DNA of 32,583 nt from Chitinophagales bacterium 62-2. GTDB lineage: Bacteria > Bacteroidota > Bacteroidia > Chitinophagales > Chitinophagaceae. Location: contig MWYU01000728.1 in assembly GCA_002050375.1 (NCBI GenBank), positions 1-32,583 on the forward strand, in the 5' to 3' direction. Both the position numbers and the translations under genes were made by a program. This document shows positions 8,888-17,882 of the stretch, piece by piece. Under the pieces are notes generated by a model. The model did not search any database. It was not told the DNA's origin and saw only the letters and a program-made list of their open reading frames with translations. Position 1 is the stretch's first letter, and every line of letters starts with the position of its first letter.

Positions 8888-10444
8888 TTATAAGTTCGTT
8901 GTTACAAAAAAGTCATTAGAGAACATTTTCAATTGCTTTTCAGAAAGCAATGAACTTCTTTGTTCTTTCCACTTTGCCACTCTGTCGCCATACATTTTTT
9001 TTGCTAACTCCGGAAACGACCATGCTGCATTCTTACCCCAGTGTATAGTAAAATCTATCCTGTTCTGAATTAATACTTCAATCATTCTTTTACTAAAATT
9101 TTCTAAACTAATCATCCTGTTGTTTCCCTTCCATAAAACACCATCAATTTCAATCATACAGGTAATGGGAAATTTAGTAAAAGCCAGCGTAGCTCTCGAA
9201 GCCTTAACAAATCGCATTGCAAAGATTCCCGGTATGGTACCTGCGTCTCTAACAAGATCGATTAATACTTCAAGTGTCCGTTTTGAATCTTTATGGTCAA
9301 CTCCAACAGAACAGGCAAAAGCTGGACCTTGATTGATTGCATCATCAAATATTTCTCCCAGTGTACCCGTTAGGTTTTAATCAACGCTTGGCAGAATATC
9401 TTTCTCTAAAAGTTTAATAAGCCTCGGAATATTGTTTTTATGTTGGGCCGCAATTTTGCCAAACAATACAATAAGGTCTTTATATAAAGCAGTTTGAATA
9501 CGCGGAATTGGATCAGGGTAGTCTGTTCTAAATTTCTTTTTATACATTGCCTCAACAACATAATCTGCGTTGTCATTATAAGGGTTTATAAAAATTTTAT
9601 AATGATAAGGATTACTTGGCTTTCCATTGGCATCCACTTCAGCGTCGATTTTAAATTCAGAATCCTTAAAATTCATTGTCACTGCTAAATCCAGCGCTAC
9701 GGACTTGTTTATTTTCCTTACATACCTGTTTAAAAGGTACAGATCTTCTGTTTCTATAACAACACCATGTATAAATCCAAACCCTCCCAAACCAACCAAT
9801 GCAGCATTGAATAATGCATCATTTCTAATGACCCTTGCATTTATACTTAATGCAAACTGATCGCTTAAAGCAGGCTCGTTTTGCCTTTCTAAATAAATAA
9901 TGTCGTTTTTATCAGGCCCGATGATTAAGTTAATTCCGACAACAAAATCCTGAACACTGCCTACATTTAGAGCTGATCCATGAACACCGGTTGAAATAGC
10001 TCCTGCAATAGTTTGTCCATTACTTGCACCACACGTTTTTAATGACTTTCCTTCACGCTTTATAAATTCGGTTATTTCTTTAATTTTATTTCCACATTCA
10101 ATTAGAAAAAGGTCCTCTTTCTTAAAAGAAGAATTGGGATGCATTTCATCATTTGAAATTGACTTTTTTATGTTCATGTTTTCATTAAAATGCATTCTGT
10201 CTTTATGATGAGCGACATTGTTCATTGACCACCTTGCACCAAAAGCCCTAAAACCTTCGTTTGCATCTGTGGTCTCTTTAAGTAAGCGCTGTATTTCTTT
10301 TGCAACATCATTGAAACGATCTATTTTAGAAGGTAGCTTGCTATCTGGCTCCAAAGTAGTTTTATATAATATCCTTGTTGGAAACGGACCATTAAAGTGC
10401 ACTGTGTTCCACTTGGATCCTTCCTGTTCTGAAGTAGTTGCCAT
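8888..10444 (-). pseudogene. FAD-linked (D-arabinono-lactone-oxidase-like) oxidoreductase interrupted by one in-frame TAA
   Basis: The track splits this into a 355-aa ORF (9377-10444) and a 109-aa ORF (8888-9217). Both are in the same frame. Between them one TAA codon (9379-9377) is followed without any further stop by NLTGTLGEIFDDAINQGPAF... running into the second ORF, for 518 codons in total. The first part is a PCMH-type FAD-binding domain (SNGQTIAGAISTGVHGSA, about residues 140-160). The second is an ALO-like C-terminal domain ending FTIHWGKNAAW...LLSEKQLKMFSND. The usual GxxHS histidine for covalent FAD appears as GARWS, so FAD would be non-covalent. The gene starts 1 nt after a lipoprotein gene and is probably co-transcribed. 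The most economical reading is a recent nonsense mutation or a base-call error; programmed readthrough is less likely. Confidence 0.85.
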
Positions 10445-14595: not shown

Positions 14596-17500
14596 TTAGA
14601 ATTTACCGGGAAGCGCTTCTCTTAGTAATTGTTGATAAGCATCCATATTTTTATTAGTTTTTAATAACTCAAGATTGGCGTTACTAATGATTATAAAACT
14701 GTATTTATTTGCTGACAGCCACGGCAAAATTCTGCTTCCGGTAACTGGTCTAACTTCGTCTATATAATTAACTGCAGCCTTTGCATCGTTAAAAGGCCCT
14801 TCTAAAACCATATTGAACCTTTCATCTAATTTTAAAGAAGACATGGCAATGGGTTGGTTATAAAACCTTTCGCGGTTATAGCGGTTGAACGCATTTCTCG
14901 CCTCACTTGCGTAAACCTCATCTACTTTATCCATAAGCAATACGACATATTGTGGATCGGTTGAAACAAAGGTGAAATTCTTAACGACTATTGGAGCAGG
15001 AGGTGCAACGGCGGTATCTTTTTTAATGTCAGGCTTTTTAGCGACAGGAGGTGCAGCTACAGTATCTTTTTTAACTACAGGTTTTTCAGTTATAGCAGGA
15101 AGTTTAGCTACAGTATCTTTTTTAACTACAGGTTTTTCAGTTATAGCAGGAAGTTTAGCTACGGTATCTTTTTTAACTACAGGTTTTTCAGTTATAACAG
15201 GAGGTTTAGCTACGGTATCTTTTTTAACTGCCGGAGGCTCAGGTTTCACGTTAATAGGATTGTTAACCTTTGGATTATTATCAACTTTTGGTATTGCAGT
15301 GCCTGCATTTTCATTTGTAGGTTTTGTTACTATTGTATTATCTACCGGCATACCCTTTCTCACATCCTCGTTTCTCGTAATTTCTAGTTTAGCAAGATCA
15401 CTTTCAATTTGTTTGCGTCGTCTTAAAACATCAATCATTGTTTTAGCGCGTTCTGCCATAGGATTACTGCTATATAAACTGGTAAGATTGGTAAGCACTT
15501 TTATAGCAGTACTGTCTTCGGTTTGCTTTACATAATAAATAGATTCAATAAACAACAGTTGGGGCGTCCAATAAGAATTGCCGTAAATGCTGTCTGCAAT
15601 TTTCTTTTCTGATTTCGCCCTCTCAAAATTCCCTTCGATAAACATGTTGTAAATGTCTTCGTACTTTTTTGTTGCAGGGCCTGACTGAACGTTGTTTTTA
15701 GCAAGTGCCGGGTTTTGTATCAGTTTTGCAAGCTTGCCATTTGGTGAGGATGCAATAAGCGCCCTTTTATAAAAATCAGCTTTTTCTTTATCGCCAGTTT
15801 TTTGATAAGCATTAGCAAGATTGAAAAGTATTTCTTCGGTATAAGCATTATTTGGAAAGCGCCTTAGCAGTTCTTCGTATGCTTTTATAGCCGAAGGGTA
15901 GTCTTCCAGTTTATTTAAAAATGTTTGTGCAAGGGTATACAAAGCTTCTCTTACTGTAATATTGCTTTCAGCAATTTGCTGGTCGGTGAGCGGCACATTT
16001 TGCAGTAACCCCTCATAGCTAATATCGGCTGTTTTCCCCGATGTATTATTTGCAGTATTTGCCGCAGCGCCGGTATCTATAATTGCGAGGCCGGGGTTTT
16101 GACGGTTTGCTGCACCTTGCCTGCGCCAGTTATCTGTATTAGGGCGCTGTCCCCACCTGCTTTTAAATTCGCTAAACCCGCGTGCTTTTGCTGAAGCATT
16201 ATAAAAATAAAAATCATTGCTTTTCTCGGTGCTTGCAAACAAATCGGAAGCCTGCTGCATTACAGCGGGATTAACACTTTCTACCTCTTCGTCTTTTAAG
16301 CCCTGTGCTCTGCGTAACTGCCGCGCCAGTTTTTTTATAAACGCTTCTCTTTGTTCAGCAGGCATTTTAGCAAGCGCCTGTAAACTATCCTGCCTGGTAA
16401 TGCTAACCGTATTTTCCGTAATAATTTTTAAAGGAGGTTTACGATCGTTTACCCTGTTCCTGTCAGGATCATTTGAAAGAGCATTTACTTCAACACTGTC
16501 GTAGAAATTATATGCAACGGGATAAATTTTACGGTCAAAATTCATATCCCCTAATAAAAGAAAAGATTGGCTTCGTTGGGCAGGATTATTTGCAGTGTAC
16601 TTCACACTTTTAAGAAGATCGTCCTGTGCATTTTCAAAGTTTTTTCTTTCAAGCTCGATGGAGGCTGCGGCATAATAAATAATGTCCCTGTAATTTTCGT
16701 ACTTATCTCTTCTGGCCATTTGGTGAAGCGCATCAATATTCTCCTGCATGTAATTCTTATTATCAGAACGGTTAATTCTAATTGAATTTAGGCGTGCATA
16801 AACATCCATGACAGGATCGGTAGTGTGCTTTATACTACGATGGTAATATTCCACCGCTTCTTCGTTCTTATTATCTAACTGGTACATCTGTGCAATCAGA
16901 TATTCCCAACGGGCTCTTTCCTGGCCGGTAGAAGCCTCAGTGAGTGCATTGTTTAAATGAAAAGCAGAGCTGTCGTAAACCTTTTGTTTATAAAACCAGT
17001 AAGCTAAAACTTCCTCTAAATCTGTGTGTAACCTCGCTGGAAAATTAAGATCGTTTCTAAGTATTTCAATTACCCCTGCAGCTTCTCCGAATTCATTCTT
17101 CTCAATATGGTTTCTCACCTGCCAAATAAAACTTTCGTTACGGCTGGGCTGGCGGGTGGTAAGTTTATTCCAAATGCTGCTTTTTTCAACTGTTGCAATA
17201 CTAAATTCACCTTTATCGTTACTTGCATTACTGCCAATGGGAATATGATAGCCGCCTTCCTCCTTGGGCGCATAAGCGTAATTGAGATATTGTAATGTTA
17301 GTCCGGCAGAGTCCTGGTCTTTCCTATAAAAATATGCTTTGGCTAAAAGCAAATACATATTATCTATCCAGCTATTTCTAAGGTCATGCAATAAAATACC
17401 TGCCGTGCATTTATAAATAATAGAGTCAAGTTCGCTCTTATCCTGCGAGGTTACATCTAGCGAGTAATTATAAAAAGAAAGCAGTTGTGAGTAATCATCT

Positions 17501-17787
17501 TTAAAAGAAGTTTTTGCACGAACTACCAAATCGTTTAGACGATTGTTAGCGTTGAAATAGTAGTTATAATGAGTAGTTGTATTATGATAAACCTTTCGGG
17601 GAAAGTTGAATTTTTTATTACCGGTTTTTTCAGAAGCTAATTTCCTGTTTTCATATTTTTTAGGTTTGATAAGTTCTACTTCAAACCCTTTTTGAGCATG
17701 ACTGAATAAAAACAAAAACGATAAAAGAAGCGTAGTGTATATACTACGGATATAGATCTTGAATAATGGACGACTGTTTAAAAGCAT
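14596..17787 (-). CDS. sprE: SprE/PorW-like TPR lipoprotein of gliding motility and type IX secretion
   Basis: SprE/PorW is needed for the type IX secretion system, probably at the inner face of the outer membrane. The start is most likely ATG at 17787 (MLLNSRPLFKIYIRS...LFSHAQKG, a signal peptide) rather than the track's 17853. TPR-type helices cover roughly residues 200-450 and 600-780 (for example ITVREALYTLAQTFLNKLEDYPSAIKAYEELLRRFP). A Lys/Pro-rich linker with a tandem repeat follows, then a C-terminal domain (YVVLLMDKVDEVYASEARNAFNRYNRERFYN... LPWLSANKYSFIIIS) that I associate with SprE/PorW. It is transcribed divergently from the AtpZ-containing cluster, an arrangement I recall from other Bacteroidota. 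No lipobox Cys is obvious near the cleavage site, so it may be soluble. Confidence 0.82.
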   Translation of the reverse strand: MLLNSRPLFKIYIRSIYTTLLLSFLFLFSHAQKGFEVELIKPKKYENRKLASEKTGNKKFNFPRKVYHNTTTHYNYYFNANNRLNDLVVRAKTSFKDDYSQLLSFYNYSLDVTSQDKSELDSIIYKCTAGILLHDLRNSWIDNMYLLLAKAYFYRKDQDSAGLTLQYLNYAYAPKEEGGYHIPIGSNASNDKGEFSIATVEKSSIWNKLTTRQPSRNESFIWQVRNHIEKNEFGEAAGVIEILRNDLNFPARLHTDLEEVLAYWFYKQKVYDSSAFHLNNALTEASTGQERARWEYLIAQMYQLDNKNEEAVEYYHRSIKHTTDPVMDVYARLNSIRINRSDNKNYMQENIDALHQMARRDKYENYRDIIYYAAASIELERKNFENAQDDLLKSVKYTANNPAQRSQSFLLLGDMNFDRKIYPVAYNFYDSVEVNALSNDPDRNRVNDRKPPLKIITENTVSITRQDSLQALAKMPAEQREAFIKKLARQLRRAQGLKDEEVESVNPAVMQQASDLFASTEKSNDFYFYNASAKARGFSEFKSRWGQRPNTDNWRRQGAANRQNPGLAIIDTGAAANTANNTSGKTADISYEGLLQNVPLTDQQIAESNITVREALYTLAQTFLNKLEDYPSAIKAYEELLRRFPNNAYTEEILFNLANAYQKTGDKEKADFYKRALIASSPNGKLAKLIQNPALAKNNVQSGPATKKYEDIYNMFIEGNFERAKSEKKIADSIYGNSYWTPQLLFIESIYYVKQTEDSTAIKVLTNLTSLYSSNPMAERAKTMIDVLRRRKQIESDLAKLEITRNEDVRKGMPVDNTIVTKPTNENAGTAIPKVDNNPKVNNPINVKPEPPAVKKDTVAKPPVITEKPVVKKDTVAKLPAITEKPVVKKDTVAKLPAITEKPVVKKDTVAAPPVAKKPDIKKDTAVAPPAPIVVKNFTFVSTDPQYVVLLMDKVDEVYASEARNAFNRYNRERFYNQPIAMSSLKLDERFNMVLEGPFNDAKAAVNYIDEVRPVTGSRILPWLSANKYSFIIISNANLELLKTNKNMDAYQQLLREALPGKF
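15056..15229 (-). repeat. 51-bp tandem repeat inside sprE
   Basis: About 3.4 copies of a 51-bp unit with nearly identical DNA sequence encode KPVVKKDTVAKLPAITE-type 17-residue units. Degenerate further copies lie on both sides (from about 15005). The near identity at silent positions points to recent expansion by slippage or unequal recombination. Confidence 0.9.
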
Positions 17788-17882
17788 AATCAGGAAGAAA
17801 ATATTTTTAAAAATAACGTTATTTTTCTTTGCGGGCATAGGAATACAGGCCAATTGCTACCTTTAACCTTTTATAAAACATT

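Follow-up and report, generated by a model that had tools for sequence, protein, structure and literature searches.

A FAD-linked oxidase gene on the minus strand is interrupted by one TAA, and the question that it raises is whether this codon is a mutation, an error of the assembly, a codon that is read through or the boundary between two proteins. The gene lies in a window of 32,583 nucleotides, the whole contig, from the 4.9-Mb draft genome of Chitinophagales bacterium 62-2 (755 contigs, 92% complete), which is probably a metagenome assembly. Genome-wide checks covered about 24% of this genome, sampled by contig (1.18 Mb); a search at E 0.001 revealed no second intact copy of the oxidase in this genome. 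Elsewhere in the window, a tandem repeat with a unit of 51 bp (97%, 3.4 copies, 15055–15229) lies within a large TPR-protein ORF (14596–17853, minus strand).

One frame and the protein it encodes

Translation of the minus strand from 10444 to 8888 yields 518 residues, interrupted once by a TAA at 9379..9377 and ended by the terminal TAA. The original prediction had put two ORFs, 9377–10444 (355 aa) and 8888–9217 (109 aa), in one frame, and translation confirms both the coordinates and the frame (Table 1). As had been stated, the frame stays open from the TAA to the following ATG, over 53 codons (9218–9376) rather than 52. The claim that there is neither a frameshift nor a second lesion holds as well: query residues 1–518 align to orthologues with the frame unchanged, tblastn and HMM matches cross the stop uninterrupted at 59–65% identity, and the 162 codons 3′ of the internal TAA are all coding, with codon usage of the coding type.

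Table 1. Features of the interrupted oxidase locus, in window coordinates
Feature	Position	Strand	Basis or remark
FAD-linked oxidase gene, aldonolactone-oxidase-like, VAO fold	8888..10444	-	full ancestral extent, 518 codons
Premature in-frame TAA, codon 356	9377..9379	-	translation; sense codon in aligned orthologues
Open 355-codon part: FAD-binding domain and first portion of substrate domain	9380..10444	-	
Post-stop remainder, 162 codons: rest of substrate domain and invariant H468-W469-G470-K471	8891..9376	-	orthologue conservation; model secondary structure
ATG of the 109-aa downstream ORF, Met410 of the full protein	9215..9217	-	alignment columns A409/M410/R411
Small putative lipoprotein gene, 115 aa	10446..10793	-	ends 1 nt before the oxidase ATG

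The ATG that opens the shorter ORF is no evidence of a new start, nor is the 109-aa ORF a new gene, because Met410 is a conserved residue of the full protein: it is invariant in a four-protein alignment and is Met in seven of eight further relatives, with Leu in the remaining one. Both ORFs are open, which speaks for a functional truncated or split protein (the 355-aa fragment, alone or with the 109-aa fragment made from the second ATG). However, this arrangement is scarcely credible, since the second ATG is that conserved Met, residues 357–409 with core strands among them would be missing, the 355-aa fragment is without the invariant HWGK, and no orthologue is split at this place.

The read-through protein matches PF01565 (FAD_binding_4) with an E-value of 1.6e-06 and 28.3 bits, above the cut-off of 26.4, and its AlphaFold model has a pLDDT of 89.8. 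The top matches of the model in the PDB are L-galactono-1,4-lactone dehydrogenase (GALDH; 8qnb and 8qmy) and alditol oxidase (2vfr, from S. coelicolor), which places the protein in this fold family. The likeness consists of the PF01565 domain, the predicted fold (TMt ~0.74–0.78) and an HWxK motif near the C-terminus, whereas identity in the structural alignment is only ~13–16%, and Trp72 of the window's protein aligns with a Leu of GALDH rather than with a flavin-linking His. Among the named NCBIfam subfamilies (GLDHase, FAD_lactone_ox, bact_FAD_ox and pln_FAD_oxido), the best score is 41.3 bits against a cut-off of 383.1, and the C-terminal part by itself matched nothing in the PDB. Viral relatives were also considered; a fold search of viral proteins gave only remote giant-virus FAD oxidases, which are not relevant here.

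The HWxK motif, considered an element of flavin binding in the aldonolactone oxidoreductase family (PMC11505616), is located 3′ of the stop, where H468, W469, G470 and K471 are invariant in all 39 aligned proteins. The 162 lost residues comprise this motif and four strands of the model's second half. As the lost part thus holds much of the substrate domain together with HWGK, the 355-aa product would be expected to be inactive.

Relatives and the age of the stop

The oxidase frame, with the internal stop translated as X, was searched in 150 genomes of the family (Chitinophagaceae), which contain two close relatives, both full length, with identities of 65% and 59%; one congener orthologue has 62% identity. 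All three close family orthologues pass the stop site and are full length, and a close orthologue is present in one of nine other members of the genus. An alignment search of genome contigs extended the set to 44 orthologous loci across Bacteroidota, mostly at 53–65% identity, and 41 of these are open across the position of codon 356, with lengths mostly of 518–540 aa. Since the orthologues run past the stop and end at ~518–540 aa, the full-length form and not the 355-aa one is, on this comparison, ancestral. The outcome set beforehand as speaking against an interrupted gene, orthologues that terminate here too, is excluded by their full length. In a wider scan of 399 family genomes, 58 have a match at E 1e-30 to the gene or a relative of it (mostly distant relatives), and an internal stop occurs in the window's copy only. 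The relatives are intact and full length and the own copy is interrupted, which is the pattern of a pseudogene by nonsense mutation.

The residues found at the column of codon 356 in 42 aligned orthologues (22 E, 7 L, 5 K, 3 M, 2 F, 1 D, 1 V and 1 N) include no stop, and indicate a variable column; a single substitution would turn the codon into TAA in 22 of these 42. On the 3′ side of the stop, one of 44 near-invariant columns is changed in the query, compared with two of 115 on the 5′ side, and intact orthologues behave similarly. The one altered column after the stop is residue 367, an Asp (EIFDDA) where nearly all relatives have Trp (EIFWDA). Divergence of the query by codon position is likewise alike before and after the stop. 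These counts give no sign of relaxed constraint after the stop, a signal that arises only in older pseudogenes. With no decay, indel or second stop following the TAA, the lesion appears either very young or absent from the organism itself.

The branch of the query is fairly long (0.62, compared with a median of 0.16), and the tree groups it, with moderate support, with Daejeonella and not with the congener. Together with the patchy distribution, these features suggest an accessory gene that may have moved between lineages.

Possible decoding of the stop codon

Readthrough, in which the TAA would be partly decoded to give a little full-length enzyme, is improbable. Belinky et al. 2021 (PMC7918605) make a general case for it where in-frame stops are under purifying selection, and their survey counted a stop only if at least two genomes shared it. 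The window resembles their cases in having a single stop in a conserved gene with surroundings that still look constrained, but the stop is common to no orthologue (0/42) and, being absent from any second genome, fails their filter against sequencing error; the constraint downstream is, moreover, also what a young mutation shows. The original prediction had judged programmed readthrough the weakest option, partly for lack of a hairpin, and this is upheld: the RNA 3′ of the stop is no more stably folded than shuffled controls (z -1.22; 23 of 200 shuffles fold as well), and no stimulatory structure was found. TAA is the commonest terminator in the sampled genome, ending 232 of 392 long ORFs in the 1.18 Mb of own DNA, and of the 29 tRNA genes found, none has the anticodon TTA, CTA or TCA, that is, none would serve as a suppressor. 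Genome-wide recoding of TAA to sense is rejected on this stop usage and tRNA set, as had been claimed from the stop usage.

A second lone TAA in the same genome counts in favour both of readthrough and of an ordinary nonsense mutation. It lies at L204:5689–5691 (contig C749), in an otherwise intact glucose/sorbosone-dehydrogenase-like gene (L204:5176–6498), and is the one further convincing match of a codon-usage scan of the sampled DNA, in which the rest were judged by eye. An uninterrupted paralogue of this gene is also present in the own genome, and the sorbosone-dehydrogenase relatives matched in 100 family genomes are all free of internal stops. The other matches by codon score, apart from those in the window and in L204, were taken, by eye, for neighbouring genes or antisense frames. 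A homology scan of the 1.18 Mb with the ORFs of relatives (81 kb covered) likewise gave, besides the oxidase, seemingly antisense or shadow-frame matches. The congener G150 (five contigs, 0.4 Mb) has a comparable short list of unverified candidates for interrupted genes, and a handful of lone-stop lesions per genome is ordinary. That the organism tolerates or weakly decodes an in-frame TAA in a small number of accessory genes for oxidoreductases (the sorbosone dehydrogenase and the FAD oxidase), with natural readthrough giving low amounts of full-length enzyme, is very improbable.

Recurrent breakage and a putative lipoprotein partner

Independent breaks are present in three of the 44 orthologues as well. 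In an Allomuricauda metagenome-assembled genome (L090, 4572–6191), the only interruption of the frame is an in-frame TAG at codon 330. The orthologue shares 92% identity with L089, and relatively more nonsynonymous codon differences occur downstream of this stop (23/105) than upstream of it (19/191). Like the window, L090 thus has a single in-frame stop in an otherwise full-length frame, but it differs in the codon and in the lineage, and represents an independent event. The orthologue of Gelidibacter mesophilus DSM 14095, an isolate genome, carries an internal deletion (L097:8001–9334), and that of an Ulvibacter metagenome-assembled genome carries frameshifts (L098:8001–9609). Such recurrent breakage points to the repeated loss of a dispensable enzyme.

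The stop could instead be an artefact of the consensus or of a mixture of strains, in which case the base would be erroneous or come from a minor strain and the gene would encode an intact 518-aa enzyme. The draft consists of 755 short contigs, the oxidase gene carries no other damage and its conservation past the stop is complete, as would equally be expected of a base error, a similar lone stop occurs in another metagenome-assembled genome (L090), and a strain mixture in the assembly could account for two lone TAAs within 1.18 Mb. However, the error would have to be a substitution, because the reading frame is unchanged across it, and in most consensus assemblies substitutions are less common than other errors; in addition, the oxidase gene is also broken in an isolate genome (L097). 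A real mutation is preferred over a base error mainly because orthologues have been broken repeatedly, although two of the three examples (L090 and L098) are metagenome assemblies, as the window probably is too. We regard the artefact as unlikely, though it is an alternative of some weight.

We therefore favour, with a probability of about 0.68, an ordinary recent nonsense allele of a patchy, dispensable accessory gene for an FAD-linked oxidase. The shortlist first proposed (a recent nonsense mutation or a base error, with readthrough the weakest option) is borne out by the full-length orthologues and the lack of decay after the stop. One very recent substitution would have placed TAA at codon 356 of an otherwise intact-looking Bacteroidota oxidase gene. 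Translation would then halt at the TAA and leave a 355-aa fragment deprived of part of the substrate-binding domain and of HWGK; the enzyme would be lost, while the small protein encoded just upstream could still be made. Loss of the oxidase would be tolerated, as its gene is an accessory one, patchily distributed and repeatedly lost. We infer that the base is real and that the allele is a null, and the sampled population may carry other alleles besides it.

The small protein encoded upstream is a putative lipoprotein with a hydrophobic N-terminus, a lipobox-like SC (SCYS), two further conserved Cys residues and a C-terminal TFGxKRxVKIKYVC. Its gene is located directly upstream of the oxidase gene in 43 of the 44 orthologous loci, usually 1–60 nt apart, and in the single locus where it is missing the oxidase begins 26 nt from the end of the contig. 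None of the other neighbours of the oxidase in the window is regularly shared among the 44 loci. Pfam Lambda_Bor gives a weak match in two of 14 lipoprotein-like members, at best with an E-value of 0.049. From this conserved order, the lipoprotein and the oxidase apparently form an undescribed two-gene module, conserved across Bacteroidota.

For annotation, the locus is best entered as a single interrupted gene for an FAD-linked oxidase rather than as two genes; beyond annotation, the interrupted oxidase matters little. The conserved pair of lipoprotein and oxidase is a more noteworthy by-product than the stop codon, and the oxidase of this pair is dispensable, with repeated losses across Bacteroidota.
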